Shown here piece after piece: positions 1 to 14,759 of a DNA stretch of 40,257 nucleotides. The DNA lies in contig JAAOXV010000013.1 of the NCBI GenBank assembly GCA_018220955.1, positions 1 through 40,257 of the forward strand, in the 5' to 3' direction. The stretch is from Candidatus Altarchaeota archaeon. GTDB taxonomy: Archaea > SpSt-1190. The notes below the pieces were generated by a model. That model saw only the letters and a program-made list of their open reading frames with translations, was not told the DNA's origin and made no database searches. The position numbers and the translations under genes are program-made. How positions within the stretch are numbered: position 1 is the first letter of the stretch; every line of letters begins with the position of its first letter.

Positions 1-408
1 ATTGAGGCAAGAAAAGCTGGCATAGACTGTCAGGTTATACATGCACCCTCGGTCATAAACGTTATCTCACGAACTGGGCTTTCTTCTTACAAGTTTGGTC
101 GGATAGTTACACTCTCAAAACCATTTGAGTCTGATAAAAAGAAAATCGAATCAAATCTCAAGACTGACCTGCACACACTTGTCCTGCTAGACCCTGTTAT
201 TGATATGCAAATGGGTCTAGCTATCCTCAGTCAATTCAATATCAAATCCAAACTAATTGCATGTGCAAGACTTGGAACCAAAACAGAAATGATAAAATAT
301 GCATTAGCAGCAGAGCTGGAAAAAATAGATTTTGGGGACCGCCCGCATTGTTTGATTATTCCGGCAAAGCTTCAATTCTTTGAGCAAGAATTTCTCGAGC
401 TATTTTAG
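1..408 (+). CDS. dphB: Diphthine synthase, C-terminal part (5' end outside window)
   Basis: Frame 1 is open from base 1 to the stop at 408. 'GLSSYKFGRIVTL', 'LHTLVLLD' and the C-terminal 'IDFGDRPHCLIIPAKLQFFE' match archaeal DphB. Confidence 0.9.
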   Translation: MEARKAGIDCQVIHAPSVINVISRTGLSSYKFGRIVTLSKPFESDKKKIESNLKTDLHTLVLLDPVIDMQMGLAILSQFNIKSKLIACARLGTKTEMIKYALAAELEKIDFGDRPHCLIIPAKLQFFEQEFLELF

Positions 409-1043
409 CACTCGCCTGTTTCAGTAATTTGTCTGACCCAAACATCTTGTTCTTGATAGACAGCGGTCCCATTGAATATTCTATAATTTGTTTGGTCGAT
501 ACATCTTTCATCGACTAGCTCATCCACACTGTCAATCAGACCTTCTAATTCAGACCAATCTAGCTCAGGTAGAAGAAGGCTAAAATTGAATTTAGCTGAG
601 ATATGGTGTTCGCTTGTGATTTCTCTTGAAATAGTGAGTATGTTTTCATTAAGTGCAAGATTGACCCTCCAAGCACCAGAATAACGACCTAATTCATTGA
701 TTGCAATCTGGTGAACAAAAAAAGCTGTTGTATAATCGTCATCCTGTTCTTCACAAGGGATACCGATAAAATCCCGCTCGCCGATAGAGATTAAGCCACA
801 ACCGCCAAGACCGCCACGTCTAAGAATATTCTTGGCTGCCTCTTGTGCCCAACTTTCCTGACTTAGCTCAGCATATCTTTGAGCGTTCCTGCCCATATAC
901 ATTAGGTCGACCAAGTTCATATCATCAGCGCTTGTTTCAAGTATTCGGGTTTCTTCTGACATATAAACAATATACAGGGCTCCAACTACACCTAACAACG
1001 CACCAGCGAGTATTGCCACCATCTGAGCTCCAATACCTTTCAT
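405..1043 (-). CDS. Small membrane-anchored pilin-like protein (MKGIG.. N-terminus, 4 Cys)
   Basis: 212-aa ORF, N-terminal hydrophobic helix after MKG, last gene of the minus-strand operon; converges on dphB. Confidence 0.75.
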   Translation of the reverse strand: MKGIGAQMVAILAGALLGVVGALYIVYMSEETRILETSADDMNLVDLMYMGRNAQRYAELSQESWAQEAAKNILRRGGLGGCGLISIGERDFIGIPCEEQDDDYTTAFFVHQIAINELGRYSGAWRVNLALNENILTISREITSEHHISAKFNFSLLLPELDWSELEGLIDSVDELVDERCIDQTNYRIFNGTAVYQEQDVWVRQITETGEC

Positions 1044-1462
1044 TCAACCACTTCCTCCAGACCTGAGTAGATTATTAGTGAACCTCCGGGTGGTATGGCG
1101 TGAATCGCCATTGCTCTACCGCCATCACCAGTCGAGCTGATTATGCTTCCTGACTGATTGAGCAACACAAAATTCTCACCATAGCTCATTAGCTCGATTG
1201 TTATGTTTCCTTTGCTAGTTAGCTCACTGTTGATTTTGACTGCCTCACTTAGCTGGTTAAAGAACGGCTCGCCACCACTTGTTCTCATAGTGATTGCTTG
1301 TAGATACGGATAACCAGGTTCAAGTCCTTGTCTTAGCTGGAACTCGGTTATTGACCTGAAATTATAGCTGATGGCTAGGATGATTCCTAGCGCAAGCGAA
1401 AATCCCATCATAAACATTGATGCAACATTTACTCCGGTTTTTGCTCCTGCTATACTTGCCAT
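1040..1462 (-). CDS. Pilin-like single-TM protein
   Basis: ORF 1040..1483; internal ATG at 1462 (MASIAGAKTGVNVASMF..) overlaps the upstream stop codon; N-terminal TM, extracytoplasmic tail. Confidence 0.7.
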   Translation of the reverse strand: MASIAGAKTGVNVASMFMMGFSLALGIILAISYNFRSITEFQLRQGLEPGYPYLQAITMRTSGGEPFFNQLSEAVKINSELTSKGNITIELMSYGENFVLLNQSGSIISSTGDGGRAMAIHAIPPGGSLIIYSGLEEVVE

Positions 1463-2238
1463 TAGACTTCGCCTCCATACCAATCAGCTTGCCCAACTAG
1501 CTCGCGCATCCAGCCAGCTGTCTGTAACCACTTGTTTTCTGGGTCACATCCAGGTTTGACAGCTATTCCAAGATAACCTAGGTGATTTGAGCCACTGGAT
1601 TCTATTGTGACTGGCAGGATATAGTATGCCATAGTGGTTGGTTGACATGTGCTGATAGCCCCGATACCACGGTCATTCTCAGCCTGTTTTGTGATATCGC
1701 TTATAAAATCGCAATAACCTGCCTGCAAGTCCCGATAACCTTCGCAAATCCCGGTTGCATCCATCATAGTCTCGCCACCGCTTCTGAACGGAAATCCCCC
1801 ATCTAAATCATCAACATAGCTGTGAATTAAGCTAGTCATTTCTCCAAGTATACAGCTGTCGATCAAAGGAGCAAGAAGGTCAACCTGAGAATTAATTTCA
1901 GCTGAAAATTCTTTTGAACCATCTTTCCAACCATCTGGGGTTGAGTAACCAACAAGACATGTGGCCATATCAGCTGTCTGAATTTCACTCCACACCATTT
2001 CATCTGTGTTATGGTTATACAATACTCCGACCAGCTGATATGTTGGAATGACTGGCAGTTCTAACCCAGTGTTCACAATTCCATCCCCTGCCATCCAATG
2101 AGCTGAAAAAAACGCGATTCGAACAACAGCCCACTTTTGAATAGTTGATATTGTAATTGTGGAAAACATGGCTGCAATGCTGATAGACAATAAAGCGATA
2201 ACAATGATGCCAGCAAACCAACCGGTTGAACCTTTCAC
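1462..2238 (-). CDS. Pilin-like single-TM protein (MKGST.. N-terminus, 6 Cys)
   Basis: 258-aa ORF with MKG start and hydrophobic helix; overlaps its neighbours by a few nt. Confidence 0.75.
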   Translation of the reverse strand: MKGSTGWFAGIIVIALLSISIAAMFSTITISTIQKWAVVRIAFFSAHWMAGDGIVNTGLELPVIPTYQLVGVLYNHNTDEMVWSEIQTADMATCLVGYSTPDGWKDGSKEFSAEINSQVDLLAPLIDSCILGEMTSLIHSYVDDLDGGFPFRSGGETMMDATGICEGYRDLQAGYCDFISDITKQAENDRGIGAISTCQPTTMAYYILPVTIESSGSNHLGYLGIAVKPGCDPENKWLQTAGWMRELVGQADWYGGEV

Positions 2239-2645
2239 TCTATTACCTCCTGGTCAATTCCCTGTTCACCTGCACCACTCCAAAAAACGAACCGTTCATA
2301 ACCATCACCACTAAAGACAGAGTCGATTTGACCTGGATATGTGGCCCAGGCAAACTGATAGCTCTCGCCGTTTTGGCTTGGGGTGATGATTCCTGTTGCT
2401 GAGCTGTCGGGTGAGCTGATACGATATACTGATTTGATTGAGTCAAGAATAAGCTGAGAGTCGGAATGCATTCCAGATATGGTGGCACAGCTGGCATACT
2501 TACCAGTGTAAATTCCGAGATTGGTGACAAGCGTGGACCGCGCCATTAGTGATGACATGGCCGCAACAGCTATGAGTAGTGTACCAAATAAAAACAGGTT
2601 TTTGTAAAGGTCTGTTGATACTGCAACGCTCTCGTCCACTCCCAC
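2235..2645 (-). CDS. Pilin-like single-TM protein
   Basis: 136-aa ORF (GTG start), N-terminal TM, collinear in operon. Confidence 0.65.
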   Translation of the reverse strand: MGVDESVAVSTDLYKNLFLFGTLLIAVAAMSSLMARSTLVTNLGIYTGKYASCATISGMHSDSQLILDSIKSVYRISSPDSSATGIITPSQNGESYQFAWATYPGQIDSVFSGDGYERFVFWSGAGEQGIDQEVIE

Positions 2646-2678
2646 ATAGCCAGAACCCTGCCAGGATATTTATCTGTT

Positions 2679-3134
2679 TCAATAGCCTGTAAGCGAAATG
2701 GTTTCATCATTCAAATTGATTTTGGCTGTTCGCGTGAATCCAATTGGTGCCAGGAAAACTGTTTGATCTGGCTTAGTTGTTGCAAGTGCAGTACATCCAG
2801 ACAAGGCAGTGGTGAATCTTGGAATCATTACACACACAACTCCGTGTGAGCCAAAACATAGTTCGTTTATTTTTTCTTTGATGTCTTGTGGCACTTCCCA
2901 TCCATCATTTGCAGTATAGCTGATACCACTACAAGGCCCAATCAACACATAATAGTTGCCTGGAATAGTTACAAAAGCTTCATTTTGAATCTGGTCTCGC
3001 ATTTTTCTTGCAGTCAAGTCAAGTCGAGTGTTCTCGCCAGTCAGCAATCCAATAATCTGCTCAAGTTGAGCCGAAGAAATAAGAGCTACAAGCCCTAAAA
3101 TCAAGATAATGAATAGAGGGGTTATCCCTCGCAT
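2679..3134 (-). CDS. Pilin-like single-TM protein (MRGIT.., 4 Cys)
   Basis: 151-aa ORF, MRG followed directly by a hydrophobic helix. Confidence 0.75.
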   Translation of the reverse strand: MRGITPLFIILILGLVALISSAQLEQIIGLLTGENTRLDLTARKMRDQIQNEAFVTIPGNYYVLIGPCSGISYTANDGWEVPQDIKEKINELCFGSHGVVCVMIPRFTTALSGCTALATTKPDQTVFLAPIGFTRTAKINLNDETISLTGY

Positions 3135-3135
3135 T

Positions 3136-3573
3136 TCACCACATCCCGCTTGCTTCCATTATATCATTGGTAGCAGTATGGCATCTGTCTGGATCAAAGT
3201 ATTGATTCAGCTGAACTTCAGAGACAAATCCCTTTTTCCAGAGATACACAGCGCAATCACACGGATTAAGAACTTCACCTTCTTCAAATTCTTCGCGTGT
3301 GAAATACTTGGTGGTCAATGCTGCTGCAGAGACACTTGCTTTTGCCAGATTGGTTTCATCAATTGTGGATTCCACAAAACCATTGGTTTCCCAAGTCCTG
3401 CAAAAAGTTGTTAGATAATTTTCCGCGTTTCCTATCTCTATTTCACCTAGCCAATCATCAAAGGTCTGGGTTGCCTGGGTTTTTGAAAGCAGTTGATACA
3501 TTGTGATTCCAACTACCAATGCCAGTAAAAGTGTGATAATAATCCAAATCGGTTGTGATGCTTGACCTCTCAT
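3136..3573 (-). CDS. Pilin-like single-TM protein (MRGQA.., 4 Cys)
   Basis: 145-aa ORF, MRGQ start resembling a class III prepilin leader, followed by a TM helix. Confidence 0.75.
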   Translation of the reverse strand: MRGQASQPIWIIITLLLALVVGITMYQLLSKTQATQTFDDWLGEIEIGNAENYLTTFCRTWETNGFVESTIDETNLAKASVSAAALTTKYFTREEFEEGEVLNPCDCAVYLWKKGFVSEVQLNQYFDPDRCHTATNDIMEASGMW

Positions 3574-3581
3574 TTTGTCAC

Positions 3582-4430
3582 CTAGCTAAGTTTAAACGGA
3601 TTTGATATTAATGCATATGCATCCTCTGAATTCTTGAGTGCTGCGGTGATTTTGTTTTGTTGATCGATAACATCTTTACACATATAGGCTAGTGCCTCAC
3701 CACAACTGTTGTCAAAAAAGCCCTCAACAAGACCTATTACATAGTCTTCATCTTCAAGAGAACTCATGTCTATTTCTACAATATAATTATTAACACAATC
3801 CATACAAATAATCAGGTTTGGACATAATGAATCTGGACACCAGCTTGCTAGGATGACCGCCTTTTTTTCTATATTAGCCAAGGACTTTACTACACCTAAT
3901 GGAGAAATTGTTGAGATTCTCCGAATCGGGTCATCTTCTGGAACATCATTCTTTAGCTGTTGTAAAAAGGCTAGGTACTCATTTTCAATCGCGCTGATTA
4001 TGGTTGTGCTTGGTGAAAAGCCCTGACCAGGCGCAGATGTTTGCCCCCATGTTGAACATTTTAGAACAAGACTGGTAAATACAGTTTGTTGGTCAGAAAT
4101 CACCGATGCTTCAATACCTTCAATCGTATTTACCAGCTTGTTATCAATCAACCCACCTCCTGATGATAGAGCACACTCAAGCGGACTATCACATTTTAGT
4201 TTGTGTTCAAAATAGAGTGCCAAATAAGAGCGCTCTTGTTGGGTGATTTGTGCTGACCCCATGGTCACTGAGCTGAGTATCTTGGTTTCCATTGATGCGA
4301 AGCCAAGCTTTGATTGAAGCGGGTTAGAGATTCCAACACCAAAATTAAAAATAAAGATTAAGACATTTATGATTATGATTGCAGTGACGACCCCTACTGC
4401 TAACCGAATGGTTGAATTTACTTCAGTCAT
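3582..4430 (-). CDS. Membrane-anchored Cys-rich protein
   Basis: 282-aa ORF, N-terminal TM, ectodomain with 'CPDSLCPNLIICMDC' cluster. Confidence 0.75.
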   Translation of the reverse strand: MTEVNSTIRLAVGVVTAIIIINVLIFIFNFGVGISNPLQSKLGFASMETKILSSVTMGSAQITQQERSYLALYFEHKLKCDSPLECALSSGGGLIDNKLVNTIEGIEASVISDQQTVFTSLVLKCSTWGQTSAPGQGFSPSTTIISAIENEYLAFLQQLKNDVPEDDPIRRISTISPLGVVKSLANIEKKAVILASWCPDSLCPNLIICMDCVNNYIVEIDMSSLEDEDYVIGLVEGFFDNSCGEALAYMCKDVIDQQNKITAALKNSEDAYALISNPFKLS

Positions 4431-4915
4431 ATAACTCCTCCTGGTGACCCGCTCATTATGTCGCGAGCTATACTCATGATTATCTGGTCTTTCTCAAGCT
4501 CATCTAGCTCGCCATCAACCGGCGGCAGTGATAATCTTATTCCAATTAGCTCTTCTATTTCACCAGCTCTAGTGTCTCTGTCCTGCCCTGCATCTATGAG
4601 CTCAAGGTAAATCGCACAACCGAGCTTGCATTTTGTATAATCAGTACCACAATTCAAACTAGTGCTTCCGTATGTGGAATACAGCTTTAGGTCAGACTTG
4701 TATGTTTCCCAAGCAGCCCTTGTGAAATAACCACTGTAAAACTCACCGCATGCAGTTTCAAGTGCGTTTGAATCACCTGTTCTAAAATACCAACCTGTTT
4801 CAATGTCTATACCCATCTTGACTTTTCCGAGTGCTTGAAAACTCACACCCGACATTACAAGTGCTATCAAAATACCTACAATCAATCCGACATGGATGGT
4901 TTCAATACCTTTCAA
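4427..4915 (-). CDS. Pilin-like single-TM protein (MKGIE.., 4 Cys)
   Basis: 162-aa ORF; MKGIETIHVGLIVGILIALVMSG leader/helix. Confidence 0.75.
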   Translation of the reverse strand: MKGIETIHVGLIVGILIALVMSGVSFQALGKVKMGIDIETGWYFRTGDSNALETACGEFYSGYFTRAAWETYKSDLKLYSTYGSTSLNCGTDYTKCKLGCAIYLELIDAGQDRDTRAGEIEELIGIRLSLPPVDGELDELEKDQIIMSIARDIMSGSPGGVI

Positions 4916-4919
4916 ACCA

Positions 4920-5477
4920 TCACCTCAGGAGCTTGCCTGAGCATGCAGATTCAATCATGTTTGAGTCAACCGCGTTTGGTTTACATGGACTGCTGATGAC
5001 TTGAATCATACCTTCAAAACACTGAATTTCGTCATCTGGACAGCTTGCATGACAGAGCTCATATGTCCTGATTATGTTTGAGCAAGCGTTTATGCATACT
5101 GAAATCTCATCTGATTGGATGTATCCATCGCCAGCACAGTGTCTGGTCTCCTCACCAGAATAACATTCAGTTGCATATTCTTCTATTATCTCACCGCAAC
5201 AGCGCCGCAGGTCTTCATATGGTTTCATCATATCATGAATCTTGAAAGTTTCCAAAATCTCTTTTGCATTGTATTTTTGTGAGCCGGCTGATAACCAGTC
5301 TGAACAGATAGTTTGCATATCAATTGGGTTCATTCGATTGCTCTGTGACTCACCTATCTTCCAAATATTTTCTATTCCCAGGCTGCTCTGACCGATTATT
5401 TTAAACCCGAGTATAAGTAAGGTGCCTGCGATGATTATGCCCATAACAACTGGAATGATTTGACCTATATCTGACAT
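4920..5477 (-). CDS. Single-TM protein with 12-Cys ectodomain
   Basis: 185-aa ORF; N-terminal TM then Cys-dense region. Confidence 0.75.
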   Translation of the reverse strand: MSDIGQIIPVVMGIIIAGTLLILGFKIIGQSSLGIENIWKIGESQSNRMNPIDMQTICSDWLSAGSQKYNAKEILETFKIHDMMKPYEDLRRCCGEIIEEYATECYSGEETRHCAGDGYIQSDEISVCINACSNIIRTYELCHASCPDDEIQCFEGMIQVISSPCKPNAVDSNMIESACSGKLLR

Positions 5478-5510
5478 TATTTTGAATGAGCTCTGCCGGT
5501 ATTTATTGAT

Positions 5511-5666
5511 TTATGTGGGTAAAAAACTCAATAATGGCTCGAGCATTCGTTTCAAAATCGGTGCAAGGAACTTTATTGTGATTAATATCCCGATAAGCAC
5601 AAGAACAATCAGGATTACGAATCTGAGCCCGCCCTCAGACATCTGGCCTTTTATTCCATCTGCCAT
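5511..5666 (-). CDS. 51-aa single-TM protein with KGQMSEGG motif
   Basis: Manual translation: MADGIKGQMSEGGLRFVILIVLVLIGILITIKFLAPILKRMLEPLLSFLPT; overlaps the end of the upstream gene by 16 nt. Too short for the ORF track. Confidence 0.65.
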   Translation of the reverse strand: MADGIKGQMSEGGLRFVILIVLVLIGILITIKFLAPILKRMLEPLLSFLPT

Positions 5667-6025
5667 GTATGAACTATTGTGCCCTGATAGTAAAGGTTTA
5701 TTCTTTCAGCGACAGAGAACTGTTCTATCGGAATTTCTATGACAGTCATGCTTCCTGCTGGCATATTGTTTGGAATATCTATCAGAGCTTCACCAGTGTT
5801 TGTCACCACCATAATCTCAAGCTCGCCACCAGCAACAGGCATATCGGGTATGATTTTCAGAAGATTGCCGGAAAGCCGATAATAGAATTGACTGTCACCA
5901 ACAGACAGGACCTCGATATCCCTTGCCTGAAGCATGAATACGATTGACAGGCTGGCTATTATCAAAATCACTATAACCACCATGCCAGCAATCCGCTTGA
6001 ATCCTTGTTCACTCATCTTTTCCAC
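5651..6025 (-). CDS. Single-TM protein, operon member
   Basis: 124-aa ORF, hydrophobic N-terminal helix, overlaps neighbours. Confidence 0.7.
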   Translation of the reverse strand: MEKMSEQGFKRIAGMVVIVILIIASLSIVFMLQARDIEVLSVGDSQFYYRLSGNLLKIIPDMPVAGGELEIMVVTNTGEALIDIPNNMPAGSMTVIEIPIEQFSVAERINLYYQGTIVHTWQME

Positions 6026-6348
6026 CCTATATCAGTGACCTGAACACAGACCGAGCTGTCTTGTTTCCAGGCTTCTATCTTGTATTGCTTGCCGACAGTG
6101 AGTTCAAATTCTCCTTGAAAATCAAGTGGTGACTCGCCGCATCTCGCATAGCTGGCCTGAAAGAGATCGAGTAAATCCATTTTGGTCTTGGGCACAAATA
6201 TCCCGGTTGATTCGCCTGAGCTATTGGCATCTTCAATCAGACTCTGAATTGAGATTTCACCTGTGTCAGAATGTGTATTGATATAGCTAACAAGAAAAAC
6301 AAAGAAAACTAGTGCTAGTATAATGGTCACGATTGCATCGAGTTCCAT
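6013..6348 (-). CDS. Single-TM protein, operon member
   Basis: 111-aa ORF, N-terminal TM (AIVTIILALVFFVFLVSYI), 2 Cys. Confidence 0.7.
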   Translation of the reverse strand: MELDAIVTIILALVFFVFLVSYINTHSDTGEISIQSLIEDANSSGESTGIFVPKTKMDLLDLFQASYARCGESPLDFQGEFELTVGKQYKIEAWKQDSSVCVQVTDIGWKR

Positions 6349-6458
6349 TATATCCCTCCAAGTGCACTAGAGATTTTTCCAAATATCTTTAGTCCAAAAG
6401 TCAGAAACAGCAGTAACAATACAACTGCGCCAACCATCCAGATTGCTTTTTCCTCCAT
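6348..6458 (-). CDS. 36-aa single-TM protein, operon member
   Basis: Manual translation: MEEKAIWMVGAVVLLLLFLTFGLKIFGKISSALGGI; its TAA overlaps the next ATG (TAATG). Confidence 0.6.
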   Translation of the reverse strand: MEEKAIWMVGAVVLLLLFLTFGLKIFGKISSALGGI

Positions 6459-6469
6459 TTTTACACCTC

Positions 6470-6664
6470 CTATATTCTAGCTCCTATCATTTCACCAACA
6501 CTTGATGCCATTGCAGTTACTTTTGTTTTTAGCTGAGTAGCGGCCAAGCTTGCGAGCCCAGACATAAATCCAGACCCCAGTGACCTAAATATAACAATGA
6601 TGGTGGCAAAAGCGATTAACAATCGTAAAAGTGCCATTATCGGAATTTCTGTTTTTTCACTCAT
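6470..6664 (-). CDS. 64-aa membrane protein, operon member
   Basis: ORF with central hydrophobic helix and a glycine/alanine-rich second half. Confidence 0.7.
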   Translation of the reverse strand: MSEKTEIPIMALLRLLIAFATIIVIFRSLGSGFMSGLASLAATQLKTKVTAMASSVGEMIGARI

Positions 6665-6859
6665 TCAACCGACCCCCAGTCCTAGAAAACCTTTGCTGAT
6701 TCCAGATAATCCAGCTGATAGAAACTGACCTGACCCAGCTATCTGGAGAAAGAACCATCCGCCAGCCATGAATAAAGAGACGATTGCACCTATTTTGACA
6801 AGCGATATTGCAGATTCCAGCAGAAACGGGACTGTGTTCAAATAGTCTTCCAAGCTCAT
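6665..6859 (-). CDS. 64-aa membrane protein, operon member
   Basis: MSLEDYLNTVPFLLESAISLVKIGAIVSLFMAGGWFFLQIAGSG..; stop adjoins the next gene; GTG at 6868 is an alternative start. Confidence 0.7.
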   Translation of the reverse strand: MSLEDYLNTVPFLLESAISLVKIGAIVSLFMAGGWFFLQIAGSGQFLSAGLSGISKGFLGLGVG

Positions 6860-6860
6860 A

Positions 6861-7010
6861 TTATGCACCTATTGTATCAGATATCACCAGCATACTCTTA
6901 TAGATAATTGACTTGCCTTGGTTCAAAAAGAAAGTAGAGCCAGGACCAATCATTATCCAAAGCACCAATGCTATCACGACTATCATGATTATGAGTTGCC
7001 ATCCTTGCAT
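6861..7010 (-). CDS. 49-aa single-TM protein, operon member
   Basis: Manual translation: MQGWQLIIMIVVIALVLWIMIGPGSTFFLNQGKSIIYKSMLVISDTIGA; fills the gap between neighbours exactly. The tracked ORF 6898..7089 is the wrong frame. Confidence 0.65.
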   Translation of the reverse strand: MQGWQLIIMIVVIALVLWIMIGPGSTFFLNQGKSIIYKSMLVISDTIGA

Positions 7011-7208
7011 TTAACCACCTAGGAAATATCTTATCGGAGTTTTGCCGATTGTGTTCAATAGAGCCACTATTGGTGTGGTTGCCACCCAAGCTATCTGCAT
7101 CACTCCTTTTACGACGCCGGGCGGCACACCGAGTAATACAAATATAACTATTGATAACAAAATCAGCGCCGGAATTGCCTGAATCATCCAGTTTGTCGGC
7201 TGCTCCAT
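7011..7208 (-). CDS. 65-aa membrane protein, operon member
   Basis: ATG at 7208 overlaps the TadC-like stop (TGATG); MEQPTNWMIQAIPALILLSIVIFVLLG.. Confidence 0.7.
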   Translation of the reverse strand: MEQPTNWMIQAIPALILLSIVIFVLLGVPPGVVKGVMQIAWVATTPIVALLNTIGKTPIRYFLGG

Positions 7209-9133
7209 CACCACACCACCGAGGATGCCATGCCTCCGAATATCATGGCTACACACACGGTTGTGATAGCATAAACCACCACACCGACTGTTAACATGTT
7301 TCCTATATTTGCGTATATTGTCATTTTGTCCCATCCGTCCAGGAGTCCACCAACGAATGTGCCGAGTATTGTCATTGTAAGTAGTATGTATATTCCAATA
7401 ATAAGCTGTAGGAATGAGGGTTGGATGATGCCTTCTACATTGATAAACTGAGAAACATAGCTATAGCCAACCATCTCTCCGCCGACAAGTGAGCTGACCT
7501 GGCGGACAATCTGCATTAGGATATTGCTGGTTATCTCACCAAGCCCAACAATCGTGCCGGTGACGAGTGGAATCAAAAACATTCCCTGAAATTTCAGACC
7601 ACTCACTGAGTCAGACATCATATCAGTTATTTTGTCTTTTACATCCTGCATGTTTTTCAGATAACGAGATACATTAATGGCGGTCGAACTAGCGCTGTAA
7701 GGACCTTTTTCAGCACTCTTTAACAGAATCAACATAATATTTTTTATTAAGTTAGATGGGAAGCTCAACATTGCACCATGCTGTTCATCAAAAAGCGATT
7801 TTTCAAGTGGCCAGCCAAGTCGACGGACCCTGGTGGATGCAGCATGAAAAAACAGTTCGACCTCAGTTCCTTTCATCCTACCAGCTACGTCTTCAATTGC
7901 CTCTTCGATAGGGACTCCTTCTGACATAACGCTACCGAGCTGATAAAGTCCAGATGCAAATTCCTTTTCCAGTACCTCCACCCGCTTCTTTGTCTCTATA
8001 TTTTCCTGCGCCCAGCTAAGTAGATAAAGTCCAATCGGAAGGCCAATCGCAATTATGCCAGGCAAGGTGGAGACAGCTGGCGATGTATCTGAATGTACCA
8101 TTGGTATAATGATGTATGGATCACTCATAAACCACAATAATTGGATGGCTCCGAACAACAAGGCACTGAGCAGCATGAGCGGCCAGACATTATAGCTCTT
8201 GCCGAATAACCGGAGTCTGTATTTGGTTTTGCTATAAGTAATTTCAGAAAGATTGCTGGGCCGTTTGCCGAGAATATAGACGACTGTGAGCGCAAGTACG
8301 AGCGGAAGCACGAAATCATAAATAATAAACATTGGCGGGCCAAAGTTACCACTTGAAGCAAATATACTGATGATTGGTGCCATGACCAGCAACAAGACAG
8401 GTAGCATCACACCGAACGCGTTTGCTATCATGACTGGTGTGCCGAGTCCTCGTGCAAATCCCTCCATTACGCCCTTGGTTCCATCAAGCACGACTGACAC
8501 TGATTTCTCAAGTGTTCTCCTTTTCTTGTCCCCTGTTTCTCTCATTGAGCTGGCCACAAGATAAATGGCCTCTGAGAAATGCGAAGACCATTCCTTTGCT
8601 TCAAGTGAATAGTCTGAAAGTGCTTCTTGCATATCTGGTTTGTTTCTGGTTTCAACCTCCCACAGCAGCCGCTTGAATACCCTGCCCAGCGGGTCAGGTA
8701 AATTTGCAGCAGTGAATGCTACACTACTTTCTAGATTGGGCGTCACCTCCATTGCGATTACCAGATACATAATCGCCAAAGGCGATTGGCCGAGCAGCTG
8801 CATTCGTCTGATTCTTGCCAAATATTTTGGATAATACACAAAGCTGGCAAACACAAAGAGCGGCAGCAGAAATGCGAAAAAGCTGGTTATGTCAGAACCA
8901 GAAAGCAGGAAGATGACCGAAATCGGAAGAGAAAAGACAGCTGCAATCACGCCAAGTGAGACCGCGCATTCAAAGCTGGTTTGAATCTCTGCCATTCTTA
9001 ACTCCTTGTCAAAGTCTTCATATTTCCAATTGATGTTTAGAACTTCGTGTGCCTTTTTTGCAGCTCGCTCATATCTACCCAGATCCAGTTCCTGGTCTTT
9101 TAGGAAAGTCTCATAATAATGGCTTTTTTCCAC
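7208..9133 (-). CDS. TadC/FlaJ/GspF-type membrane assembly protein with two T2SF-like domains
   Basis: 641 aa, repeated arrangement of cytoplasmic helical domain plus paired TM helices; 'LYQLGSVMSEGVPIEEAIEDVA' is typical of T2SF; follows the secretion ATPase. Confidence 0.85.
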   Translation of the reverse strand: MEKSHYYETFLKDQELDLGRYERAAKKAHEVLNINWKYEDFDKELRMAEIQTSFECAVSLGVIAAVFSLPISVIFLLSGSDITSFFAFLLPLFVFASFVYYPKYLARIRRMQLLGQSPLAIMYLVIAMEVTPNLESSVAFTAANLPDPLGRVFKRLLWEVETRNKPDMQEALSDYSLEAKEWSSHFSEAIYLVASSMRETGDKKRRTLEKSVSVVLDGTKGVMEGFARGLGTPVMIANAFGVMLPVLLLVMAPIISIFASSGNFGPPMFIIYDFVLPLVLALTVVYILGKRPSNLSEITYSKTKYRLRLFGKSYNVWPLMLLSALLFGAIQLLWFMSDPYIIIPMVHSDTSPAVSTLPGIIAIGLPIGLYLLSWAQENIETKKRVEVLEKEFASGLYQLGSVMSEGVPIEEAIEDVAGRMKGTEVELFFHAASTRVRRLGWPLEKSLFDEQHGAMLSFPSNLIKNIMLILLKSAEKGPYSASSTAINVSRYLKNMQDVKDKITDMMSDSVSGLKFQGMFLIPLVTGTIVGLGEITSNILMQIVRQVSSLVGGEMVGYSYVSQFINVEGIIQPSFLQLIIGIYILLTMTILGTFVGGLLDGWDKMTIYANIGNMLTVGVVVYAITTVCVAMIFGGMASSVVW

Positions 9134-9166
9134 ATTTTCAAGTAAATGCCCAAGTATTTATCTCTT

Positions 9167-11371
9167 CTAGATGTTCTTACCAAGCCATCTTTCCCAACGG
9201 ACATAGACTTCTTTTGCATCAGCAGCGCCAAGCTCTTGTGAAACCGAGTCACTTATCATATGAAATATGTCATTTGATTGAACAACAAAACCTGCCTCGA
9301 GCAGCTCTGGTTTACCAGTCGAGTCAGCTACCTCGACCAACCTTTGTTTAATTTTGGCCCTGAGTTCGATATTATCCCAAACTTCATCAAAGTTACCGAC
9401 CCAAGCTCTAACTCGGCCAGCGATTGAGTTGATTACCTCGCTTTCTCCATCAAGCAAAACCTTGGTCGGCTCAATCCGGTCTGTCTTTGCATTATACTTC
9501 ATAAGGTCAACAAATCCGTGTTCCCTTAATGGATCATCTTCCCAGTGTTTGCGAACCTCGGTTATCTGAACCAGCCGACGAGCCTTATGCAGGCCGTCAG
9601 CAGTTTTGATTGGGTTCGCGACCAGTATTATGTCTGTTGCTTTAAAGCTGGTTCTTGGTATACCAAGGTCATTCACGACTCGGTCGAACACCCCATATGG
9701 TGAGTCGCCGTGTATGGTTCCAGCTACTACATTGGCCAGTGCACCCACTCGCATGGCCTCATATAATGCAATCGCTTCCTTGCTTCTAACCTCACCAATT
9801 ATGAGTGCACTGTCACCCAGACGCAAGCTAGTCCTGATGCCAGCAGCCGCATCCAGCTCGCTCTCCACACCTACAATCGGGCTCCTTACCTTCATTGGTT
9901 GGATATTATATCCCAACTCCATGAAATGTCTGACTGGTAGCTCAAGTGTGTCTTCGATTGTGATAATCCTATATCGCCTCATTATCTCTGTCATCAAGCT
10001 TTGTAGAACCGAAGTTTTCCCAGCTCCTCTTGTACCTGCGACCAGCATGGTTCTTGAACCATCAACAAAAAAGCTAATCAATCCGGCTGCGAGAGGTGAC
10101 ATCATTCCATGTTTGATGAATAAGGGTAAGGTCCAGGGTTTGGCACGATGTCTCCTAATTGCAAAGCTTAGCCCAAATGGACTCAGACTCTTGGTGATGG
10201 CTGCCACTCTGGCTCGAACCTGACCAAACTCGATATGAGTGTCTAAGACTGGATTGCTTTCATCGAGTGGTCTACCTGACTGTAATCTGAGTCTGGCCGC
10301 CCAGCTCTGAGTTTCCTCATAGGTTGGAAATATGTTAGTTTCACAGTCTTCTGCATCAGCATGATACACAAACACCGGATTTACTAGTGGTGCGTTTATG
10401 GTGATGTCCTGAATATGTGCATCCATTAACAAGAGCTCAAGCACACCAAAACCTACTGTTTCTCTAGTAATGATGTCTGCCAGCTTTTTCTTGTCAAGCT
10501 TGATTCGTCTATTATGTGCCTCTTCCTCAATCATATCTGCAGCTATGTTGTAGATTGCATCTCGTATGGCCTGCGGGTCCACCATTTCATCAGTTTTTGG
10601 TTTATACGCAATCAGACCTTCTTTGATTTTTTCAATTATGCTATATTCAATCTCGCTTAGCTTGAACTCAGGCGGGAGAATATGATAAAACAGTCTAACT
10701 CCTTCTGGTTTTCTAATTATGGTTACATCGGCCTCGCCGACCTTGTATGAATCTATTTCCTCACCGGCCGGATATTGGGCCATCAGCTTGGTGAATGTGA
10801 AATTAGGTCTAACACTTGGTCGGAATATTCGTCTATAGACTGTTCGATCACCTATTTTGTATCCTTCAAGCAGGGGCTGAACAAGCTTGATTAGCTGAAG
10901 TGATTCAAATGTTTCAATCAAGCCAGTCAGAATCTTTACATAATGAAATCGCCATTTTCGATAATTGGAATATACTTCTCGACCTGCCTCAATTTCCTGC
11001 CATCTTTTTTCTCTTTTTAGCTCAACATATGCACCAATTGGGTCTCTAATTGCAGTTCTTGAAATCATTTGCGCAAACTCAACCCACTCTTCCCCAATCG
11101 TGCAACCAGATGGTCTGACTTCTTCTGCACTCAGCTTCAAGCTATCAATCGAGTTTGCCAGCTCGACCAACATTCCAGTCTGCCTTTCATCATACTCACG
11201 TATTCGTCGCTCAATCAACACAAGTAAGTCCAGCTTCCTGAGCTTGCGAATAGCGAGTATGACTTGTTCCATACAGGCCTCGCTTTCCTCTATGGCTGGT
11301 GGAAACGGTTTTCCTGTCAGGTTCATCTCTAGAACTTTTTTATCCCCTACTTGCCTTGTTCGATAATCCAC
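9167..11371 (-). CDS. Type II/IV secretion (TadA/GspE/VirB11-like) ATPase
   Basis: Walker A 'GTRGAGKTS', 'IITIEDTLEL' (Asp-box region), 'ALIIGEVRSKEA' (Walker B), 'VAGTIHGDSPYGVFDRVV' (His box). GTG at 11371 sits about 25 nt from a TATA box; the tracked ORF uses TTG at 11386. Confidence 0.93.
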   Translation of the reverse strand: MDYRTRQVGDKKVLEMNLTGKPFPPAIEESEACMEQVILAIRKLRKLDLLVLIERRIREYDERQTGMLVELANSIDSLKLSAEEVRPSGCTIGEEWVEFAQMISRTAIRDPIGAYVELKREKRWQEIEAGREVYSNYRKWRFHYVKILTGLIETFESLQLIKLVQPLLEGYKIGDRTVYRRIFRPSVRPNFTFTKLMAQYPAGEEIDSYKVGEADVTIIRKPEGVRLFYHILPPEFKLSEIEYSIIEKIKEGLIAYKPKTDEMVDPQAIRDAIYNIAADMIEEEAHNRRIKLDKKKLADIITRETVGFGVLELLLMDAHIQDITINAPLVNPVFVYHADAEDCETNIFPTYEETQSWAARLRLQSGRPLDESNPVLDTHIEFGQVRARVAAITKSLSPFGLSFAIRRHRAKPWTLPLFIKHGMMSPLAAGLISFFVDGSRTMLVAGTRGAGKTSVLQSLMTEIMRRYRIITIEDTLELPVRHFMELGYNIQPMKVRSPIVGVESELDAAAGIRTSLRLGDSALIIGEVRSKEAIALYEAMRVGALANVVAGTIHGDSPYGVFDRVVNDLGIPRTSFKATDIILVANPIKTADGLHKARRLVQITEVRKHWEDDPLREHGFVDLMKYNAKTDRIEPTKVLLDGESEVINSIAGRVRAWVGNFDEVWDNIELRAKIKQRLVEVADSTGKPELLEAGFVVQSNDIFHMISDSVSQELGAADAKEVYVRWERWLGKNI

Positions 11372-11388: not shown

Positions 11389-11401
11389 CTGGATATAAAT
11401 C
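11389..11401 (-). promoter_or_regulatory. TATA-box promoter of the secretion/pilus operon (putative leaderless start at GTG 11371)
   Basis: ATTTATATCC on the minus strand, about 22 nt before GTG. Confidence 0.55.
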
Positions 11402-11450: not shown

Positions 11451-11900
11451 ATGACTCTGACTAAATCTTGCATGACCAAAAAAGCAAAAATCATGATGGA
11501 AACTGTTGAGACCACAAACAAGAGACAATACCATTTGTATCTCATTGATACAGGTTCTTATGAGGCGCCAACAGAAGAATCCCATAAAAACATAGTTGCT
11601 TTGATTGATACTGCTGATCCGTTGGAGTCGATTGATACTGCCAACTATCTTGCCATTGATGTTCCAACAGCGACCCCTGACAACCTAAGAGGATTGATAG
11701 GGACTAGACTTAATAAATTAAAATACAAAACAGATACAGGTTCAGATCGTATTACTAGACATACACCTATTGATATGCAGTTGGTGGATTTCAAAGAAAA
11801 ACAGATGATTGTGTTGTATACTGAAAGGATTGATGTTGCTGCAAAACTTGAAGCCATTAAACAAGGCTTTGAAAAAGACCTGCATTATTACTCTAGTTGA
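11451..11900 (+). CDS. Hypothetical soluble protein, divergent from secretion operon
   Basis: 149-aa ORF; no family recognised; start could be a downstream ATG. Confidence 0.55.
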   Translation: MTLTKSCMTKKAKIMMETVETTNKRQYHLYLIDTGSYEAPTEESHKNIVALIDTADPLESIDTANYLAIDVPTATPDNLRGLIGTRLNKLKYKTDTGSDRITRHTPIDMQLVDFKEKQMIVLYTERIDVAAKLEAIKQGFEKDLHYYSS

Positions 11901-12527: not shown

Positions 12528-14759
12528 ATGCAAGAAATAAAAGGAAAAATTAAGGTAGTTGCAGCAGCTTTGGCTGGGGGCCTCATGATAGGGGCAACAA
12601 TGGCTGGAGCAGTAGCAGCAAACCTTGGAGACCTACCAGCTCCGTTCGTAGAGAACAGTCAGCTGAACTCGCAGATCGTCATTGGTGCAAATGCAGCAGT
12701 AGCAGATGTTATTGCAGCAGCTCAGGTTTCGGCCGCACTCGGTGAATATATGATCAGCGCAGTATCAACTGGTGGAGCAACAACAGTCAGTGGCGGAACA
12801 CAAGACGAAGACGTTCTTGGAGCAGCGGTATACATCGGCTTAGGCAAGTATACTTTCAAGGATAACGACATTCCGAAACTACAGGACACTGAAATTAGTT
12901 TCAGTGATGACACATTTGATATCCACGAGGAAGTTATATTGGGTCAAACAAACCTGAAACTGGTTACTGGTGTAGGTACATCGGACATGTCTGGTATCAA
13001 TGATGCAGACACTTATGGCAGCGACGTAGCTTCCAAGACCTATATGAAGGTCACAGAGGACGACATCACATACAAGTATGTATTTGACGACAACGTGCCT
13101 GTTGGAGACATCGACACTACTCATCTATTGAAGATAAACTTCTTGGGTAGCCAACTCGAAATTTCAGCAGCAACCGAGTCTAACAATGCAACTTCAGGTG
13201 TGGACGAGGTTACCGTATCAATCGGTACTGAGTACGTTCTCGCACAAGGAGCAACAGCTGTTGTTGACGCTAAGACTGTTACAGTTGACACAATAGGCGA
13301 CTCTTCAGTAGCACTTTCGATTTCAGGAAGCGGCTGCTCTGATACAGACTTTGTAAGCTCAGGATCTACCTGGGAAACAAGCTGTGGAGTTGACGTGAAA
13401 GTCGAGAGTATATTGTATGTTGACGCAGGTCACGCTGACAACAAGGTAAAGGTTAGTATTGGTACAGATATTACCAAGACCTACAAGCACGGAGAAGCAT
13501 ATATCGGATATGAAGACGAAGACACTCCAACATGGGTATGGGACATCCTAATAGGTGTAGACGACAAGATTGATTCAATCGGTGTTGCATACAACTTGGA
13601 TATAACCAGCCTTGACGACTCGCCGATTTCGGTGGGTGGAGAGCTAGCTCTTCCAGGAGATTTCGTAGTGCTCAGGCTTGTAGACTACAATACTGATACC
13701 TATGGTCAGTTTGATGTCAAAATAGACAGCTCTGAAAAAATCTATGACGCAGCTGGAACAAACTTGTACGTGAGCAACCTACCAGTGCTTATATTTGATG
13801 GACCAGAAGACGATTCATTCGCAGGTGGAAGTTGGGAATCTGAAAAGATTGCTATACACTTAAACGCCACGGGTGCATATATCGGATACTGGGACACTGA
13901 TAAGAGCAAGTGGTTGTACCATGGCAAGAACGAGACCAACACTATTGGTGGTGGACTTAACTTCACTGCAAACTGGGATACTGCAGTTAACATCGTGCAG
14001 GATGACTCAATAATTGATGTCTACCTGAGAAACGCAGGATACCCAACCAGTGTCGATGCAGAGGCATACTTAGATGTCAGCGGTCACGCAGACACTCTAA
14101 TAATTGACCCAGCAGACGACCTGAGCTCATTGGGAGCAACAGCAAACCAGGCTGAATCTGGCGAAGTTACTCTTGGTGGTATTGATATCAGTACCTACAA
14201 GACCGATGTCAGAAGCAACTATGGTATAGTATTGTTAAACCCAGACAGCAACGGTGACACCGATAAGGTGAAGTTCCAAGTACCAGATGAACAGGTTAAA
14301 GTTAACGTATATCTAGGTGACCCAACTGGTGGAGCAACCGCTTCAGCAGCAGACATTACCTACACATACGCACCGATAACCACCGAAGTAGCAGTTATGG
14401 ATAGCGAGGCAAGTACCACACAACCGATGATCGTCATTGGTGGACCAGGTATCAACAGCCTAGCACAACAGCTATTAGGAAGCAGGGAAACTAGCTTTGA
14501 GGAATGGAAGACATTCTTCGGATACGATGACGCAACTGCCACAGGCAAAGGTGTTATCAAAGTCTATGACGCTGCAGACACACCTTGGACACAGCCCGCA
14601 GTACTAATTGCAGGTTGGGAAGCAAAAGATACCAGAGCAGCTGGTTACATATTTGCTAAATATCTCAGCCAAGAAGCAGTTAGCGAGTGGGACAGTAAGA
14701 CTAAGGTCGTAATTTCTGGTGAAACAGTCACTGGATCTACAGTCTCGTCAACCGAATAG
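12528..14759 (+). CDS. Methanococcus-type S-layer protein
   Basis: 743 aa, signal peptide, N-terminal 'NLGDLPAPFVENSQLNSQIVIGANAAVADVIAAAQVSAAL' and C-terminal 'MIVIGGPGINSLAQQLL' typical of the archaeal S-layer family; AGGTGA Shine-Dalgarno 6 nt before ATG. Confidence 0.9.
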   Translation: MQEIKGKIKVVAAALAGGLMIGATMAGAVAANLGDLPAPFVENSQLNSQIVIGANAAVADVIAAAQVSAALGEYMISAVSTGGATTVSGGTQDEDVLGAAVYIGLGKYTFKDNDIPKLQDTEISFSDDTFDIHEEVILGQTNLKLVTGVGTSDMSGINDADTYGSDVASKTYMKVTEDDITYKYVFDDNVPVGDIDTTHLLKINFLGSQLEISAATESNNATSGVDEVTVSIGTEYVLAQGATAVVDAKTVTVDTIGDSSVALSISGSGCSDTDFVSSGSTWETSCGVDVKVESILYVDAGHADNKVKVSIGTDITKTYKHGEAYIGYEDEDTPTWVWDILIGVDDKIDSIGVAYNLDITSLDDSPISVGGELALPGDFVVLRLVDYNTDTYGQFDVKIDSSEKIYDAAGTNLYVSNLPVLIFDGPEDDSFAGGSWESEKIAIHLNATGAYIGYWDTDKSKWLYHGKNETNTIGGGLNFTANWDTAVNIVQDDSIIDVYLRNAGYPTSVDAEAYLDVSGHADTLIIDPADDLSSLGATANQAESGEVTLGGIDISTYKTDVRSNYGIVLLNPDSNGDTDKVKFQVPDEQVKVNVYLGDPTGGATASAADITYTYAPITTEVAVMDSEASTTQPMIVIGGPGINSLAQQLLGSRETSFEEWKTFFGYDDATATGKGVIKVYDAADTPWTQPAVLIAGWEAKDTRAAGYIFAKYLSQEAVSEWDSKTKVVISGETVTGSTVSSTE

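Follow-up and report, generated by a model that had tools for sequence, protein, structure and literature searches.

The 19 neighbouring genes at positions 405–11371 on the minus strand of the analysed DNA (a stretch of 40,257 nt, here called the window) encode one ATPase, one membrane platform protein and 17 small proteins. In our reading, to which we give a probability of about 0.6, they encode a type IV filament machine of the sort found in DPANN archaea, which builds a heteropolymeric pilus or pseudopilus. Most likely, its product is a filament on the cell surface by which other cells are gripped. The interpretation is based on gene content, conserved gene order, enrichment of signal motifs, promoter-like boxes, a prepilin peptidase encoded in the genome and vertical inheritance. 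The core of the machine is already known in related archaea, and almost all of its many other subunits are uncharacterised; the new elements are the ordered set of genes found across the class, its division into four predicted promoter units, the statistics on the signals and a list of parts.

The genes are numbered g1–g19 from the upstream end. In agreement with the initial annotation of this DNA as to place, number and content, they run from the ATPase gene g1 (11371–9167) through the platform gene g2 (9133–7208) to the last of the 17 small genes, which ends at position 405. Membrane helices had been described in all products except the ATPase, in N-terminal or central position, and the predictions agree: each of the small proteins (36–282 aa) has one N-terminal membrane segment that starts by residue 17 (17/17), g2 has eight segments and g1 has none. 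At its downstream end, the cluster faces a convergent, contig-truncated TP_methylase (dphB-like) gene. On the upstream side, the plus strand carries a gene for an S-layer family protein (12528–14759; PF05124, 1.9e-15), divergent from the cluster and separated from it by one or two unknown small genes. A 149-aa protein with no Pfam match is encoded between the two (11451–11900, plus strand).

The g1 protein (734 aa) is a secretion-type ATPase of the VirB11/GspE/TadA-like type (PF00437, T2SSE, 5.9e-17). In a PDB search, its closest solved relatives are archaeal GspE (2oap, 8.7e-38), CpaF and FlaI. With the archaeal GspE/FlaI ATPases (2oap and 4ii7) it shares the catalytic domain, aligned over about 430 residues and including the Walker A motif GTRGAGKTS and a GEVRS segment, but an additional conserved stretch at its N-terminus, about 210 residues long, lies outside the PDB matches. 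Orthologues of g1 in the class are 51–73% identical. The g2 protein (641 aa) is a TadC/FlaJ/GspF-like platform; the window copy is below the T2SSF cut-off (17.6 versus 25.2 bits), and six of 10 orthologues match T2SSF, the best at 2e-08. BLAST between the two halves of g2 gave no internal similarity, and a single-protein contig search with g2 gave no relatives; the named relatives discussed below were gathered by a search with the ATPase alignment. The type IV filament core proposed for this pair is supported by homology, through PF00437 and 2oap for the ATPase and through the orthologues for the platform.

The cluster was initially described as a single operon starting from a TATA box at about position 11395. 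This box is present as TTTATA (11393–11399, minus strand), at −28 from the g1 start, and a TATA-like box lies at the same place in the related loci L041–L043. The single operon probably gives way to four predicted units: only three internal gaps exceed 30 nt; they precede g2, g11 and g16, each is exactly 33 nt long and each is associated with a TATA-like TAAATA box on the minus strand. These boxes are situated at 9155–9162 (−27 from the g2 start; TAAATA there in L040, L041, L043 and L044), at 5499–5507 (−28 from the g11 start; TATA-like at the same place in L041–L045) and at 2666–2674 (−27 from the g16 start; conserved in L042), and such boxes recur at matching places in most of the relatives checked. 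A spacing of −27 or −28 is typical of leaderless archaeal promoters. The hexamers TTTATA and TAAATA together occur 21 times on the minus strand of the whole window, and the chance of such a hexamer within an 8-nt zone is about 0.004 per site. On the basis of these boxes at leaderless-promoter spacing, the cluster is probably divided into four leaderless units: g1, g2–g10, g11–g15 and g16–g19.

Among the small genes of the second unit, all on the minus strand as are those of units 3 and 4, g3 (7011–7208; 65 aa) is recognized by its family profile in six relatives (8e-26 to 4e-31), and g7 (6348–6458; 36 aa), a candidate Flp-like subunit, also in six (about 1e-20 to 1e-22), with orthologues of 36–37 aa in the same slot. 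The genes between them have positional orthologues only, by size and slot for g4 (6861–7010; 49 aa) and by position for g5 (6665–6859; 64 aa) and g6 (6470–6664; 64 aa). A profile in six relatives was likewise obtained for g8 (6013–6348; 111 aa), which has conserved cysteines. The positional orthologues of g9 (5651–6016; 121 aa) are 9–22% identical, and g10 (5511–5666; 51 aa) corresponds to genes of 39–52 aa in the same slot of L041–L046.

Three genes of the third unit are paralogues with a common cysteine motif: g11 (4920–5477; 185 aa), 37–42% identical within the family, g12 (4427–4915; 162 aa, starting MKG; profile and alignment) and g14 (3136–3573; 145 aa, starting MRG), whose profile matches reach 2e-66 in L042, 2e-71 in L046 and 7e-33 in L047. 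For g13 (3582–4430; 282 aa), L042 has a gene of 282 aa at the same slot, starting MKG, and g15 (2679–3134; 151 aa, starting MRG) has a profile match in L042. The fourth unit comprises g16 (2235–2645; 136 aa), g17 (1462–2238; 258 aa, starting MKG; positional orthologues by slot in L042 and L046), g18 (1040–1462; 140 aa; by slot in L046) and the last gene g19 (405–1043; 212 aa, starting MKG), whose positional counterpart is the last gene of L046, a larger one.

Genes of the same sizes occupy slots g3–g11 in 6/6 genomes of the same family wherever the contigs extend that far; in most of the six, these include a gene of 36–37 aa and one of 39–44 aa. In L042, of this family, the gene order continues to g17. 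In L046, from another family of the same class, slots g3–g19 can be traced, mostly by order and size and not by sequence, with two extra genes and a much longer last gene. Since the g3–g11 order, including the genes of 36–44 aa, recurs in the family and L046 maintains it through to the last gene, we consider the 19 genes to be real. Of the small genes, g3, g7, g8, g11, g12, g14 and g15 are detected in relatives by sequence profiles. Iterated profiles for g4, g5, g6, g9, g10, g13 and g16–g19 revealed no relatives beyond those given by slot and size; the one exception is a pairwise match of g16 to the L042 gene at the same slot (7e-04). Most of the small proteins have diverged past sequence recognition while the gene order stays, and the cluster illustrates how such components can be identified from their order where sequence comparison no longer detects them.

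Pfam and NCBIfam searches with the 17 small proteins found no curated family, no pilin family and no match to Flp, TadE or TadF. AF2 models, built from seven sequences for g8 and 11 for g11, have mean confidences (pLDDT) of 83.5 and 81.1, respectively. The g8 model consists of a membrane helix and a small alpha/beta ectodomain, and that of g11 of an N-terminal helix, of low confidence past residue 25, and an all-helical, cysteine-rich ectodomain. The small ORFs had been expected to be conserved and pilin-like in structure: their slots are indeed conserved in relatives, but the g8 and g11 models gave no significant match in a Foldseek search against the PDB. Their modelled ectodomains could be new folds.

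The proposal of many mutually divergent pilin-like proteins is supported by the 17 small single-TM proteins and by their enrichment in class III-like signals. The start M[KR]G is found in 5/17 small proteins versus 0/237 background proteins with an N-terminal membrane segment (P = 7e-7), and a broader class III-like motif in 6/17 small proteins of the window (P = 8e-4) and in 92/209 proteins of 19 related clusters versus 13/223 in the background (P = 8e-22); the P-values are indicative, since gene starts were called automatically and the relatives are not independent, and the backgrounds were drawn from a limited set of contigs. In some orthologous loci, the broader motif is near-universal (12/15 in L050 and 9/10 in L052), whereas 11/17 small proteins of the window carry no class III signal recognizable by it. 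The Pfam model Class_IIIsignal (PF04021) remains below cut-off across the genome, with zero matches in the window. In the orthologous cluster L050, one gene (5866–10344, minus strand) encodes a single-TM protein of 1492 aa that carries a class III-like signal and is a candidate giant adhesin.

No prepilin peptidase gene had been seen, which is correct for the 19-gene locus but not for the genome: contig C20 of the same genome encodes a Peptidase_A24 prepilin peptidase (L060, 1093–1839; 4e-11, over cut-off). This is the sole Peptidase_A24 found in the genome, and it is unlinked to both pilus loci. The second pilus-type locus, L036 on contig C3, is composed of an ATPase gene, two T2SSF-like genes and genes for proteins with MKG signals; among its proteins are those starting MDRMKGQLSIDYA and MEGRMKGQFYVV.

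In the machine that we propose, the g1 ATPase, judged by its homology, would drive the g2 platform, and g2 would extract many different single-helix prepilin-like proteins from the membrane and add them to a single pilus or pseudopilus, a heteropolymer. Subunits with an M[KR]G signal would be processed by the C20 peptidase. The shaft, comparable to that of Flp-type pili, could consist of the tiny unit 2 proteins (g3–g7 and g10; 36–65 aa, almost only helix), and the larger, fast-diverging and partly cysteine-rich g11–g19 from units 3 and 4 could make up a tip or adhesive complex by which a partner cell would be recognized and held. This division into shaft and tip, and contact with a host, are inferences; as a precedent, the Kil Tad pilus of Myxococcus has a tip of minor pilins that acts on other cells (PMC12075869). 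A fuller picture, which we put forward tentatively and regard as doubtful in its entirety, would be a surface machine in which about 17 different pilin-like subunits assemble together, their ectodomains of new folds and their genes in a class-wide fixed order, with a shaft of tiny helix-only proteins and a lineage-specific tip by which symbiotic archaea would seize or penetrate host cells.

The core proteins are common to type II secretion, and the six tiny helix-only proteins could instead make a short piston of a pseudopilus, pushing out surface or S-layer-associated proteins without a long filament. The first large gene next to the cluster on the opposite strand is that of the S-layer family; it is, however, divergently transcribed and adjacency by itself is weak, and co-transcription with the cluster is seen for no gene that could encode a substrate. 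To our knowledge, archaea of the DPANN kind have neither an outer membrane nor a secretin to push through, and we regard secretion of this type as unlikely. The lack of a clear class III signal in most of the small proteins, the ectodomain models of g8 and g11 unlike solved structures and the strictly kept order, which suggests a fixed-stoichiometry complex, would also suit a membrane-bound complex that forms no filament, most of the small proteins being permanent single-pass parts of a contact or transport channel that crosses the envelope and is remodelled by the ATPase and the platform. The enrichment of class III signals here and their frequency in L050 and L052 argue against such a complex, as does the formation of filaments or pseudopili by named relatives of the core, so that it appears rather improbable.

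An archaellum or a conjugation (VirB11) system was considered because the FlaI and VirB11 models match g1, weakly, with 126 and 63 bits; these scores are far under the cut-offs of 550 and 250, and the cluster lacks VirB or other conjugation genes as well as a FlaH-like gene. A KaiC-type match above the cut-off occurs only once in the genome, on another contig. Both identities were rejected on the sub-cut-off ATPase scores and the gene content, and the chance that either is correct is very slight.

The filament machine favoured here has published counterparts. Makarova, Wolf and Koonin described in 2019 DPANN 'dark matter' pilus islands with TadC and predicted diverse pilins (PMC6393860, Fig. 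2A), in which TadC and a FlaI-type ATPase (printed FliI) stand beside many signal-bearing proteins without detectable homologues. That source gives a figure and a general prediction only (PMC6393860), and the likeness is drawn at that level; to it, the present analysis contributes the promoter units, the gene order across the class and the statistics on the signals. For cluster-2 DPANN and Undinarchaeota, Hamm et al. (2024) described a pair of conserved type IV pilus loci that include CpaF and TadC, and proposed a role in host interaction (PMC11291902). An ATPase–TadC pair of this type is present in the 19-gene cluster, but those loci were chosen for a coiled-coil attachment protein (PMC11291902), and by a crude heptad score the cluster encodes none; by this score, only a few of the named loci have one. 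The initial annotation had allowed that the pair might belong to an already characterised locus: it does resemble described DPANN loci, but these are functionally uncharacterised (PMC6393860, PMC11291902). We therefore regard the cluster as a variant among such DPANN pilus loci; its core is not new. Tad/Flp pili including Myxococcus Kil have in common with it a CpaF-like ATPase, a TadC-like platform, very short helix-only proteins and many minor-pilin-like proteins (PMC12075869). The cluster differs from them in having no pilin-family match, 17 subunit genes and no secretin or TadZ gene.

Each of the 10 class genomes has the g1-type ATPase. In a sample of 394 archaeal genomes, 169 have it at E ≤ 1e-60. 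Among the best 80 named relatives, nearly all were deposited as DPANN lineages; three are labelled otherwise (Aminicenantes, Methanosarcinales and Euryarchaeota) and may be mislabelled bins. In the ATPase tree, the class forms one clade (support 100/99), with the window beside L042, which is consistent with vertical inheritance within the class. Where at least 3 kb of downstream sequence was available, 22 of 44 named TadC loci, mostly from Woesearchaeota, have at most one same-strand gene after the pair, so the ATPase–TadC pair can exist without the set of small proteins. Long runs of single-TM genes are found in L112, L114, L124 and L128. The source genome is of 0.64 Mb and its relatives were deposited as DPANN, in keeping with the DPANN-like archaeon first suggested; this tiny archaeon is probably symbiotic.

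For the question of how DPANN archaea recognize and hold their hosts, the cluster provides a class-wide parts list, with a motor, a platform and candidate shaft and tip proteins in four predicted promoter units, and specific proteins can therefore be expressed, located and imaged.

Two observations concern the genomes compared. G007, of the same class, has 3.8 Mb, versus 0.6–1.1 Mb for class genomes, with 6% contamination, and is possibly a composite bin. In G185, G213, G212, G133, G292 and G248, the ATPase matches lie within open frames of 1263–2013 aa, which suggests inteins or fusions.
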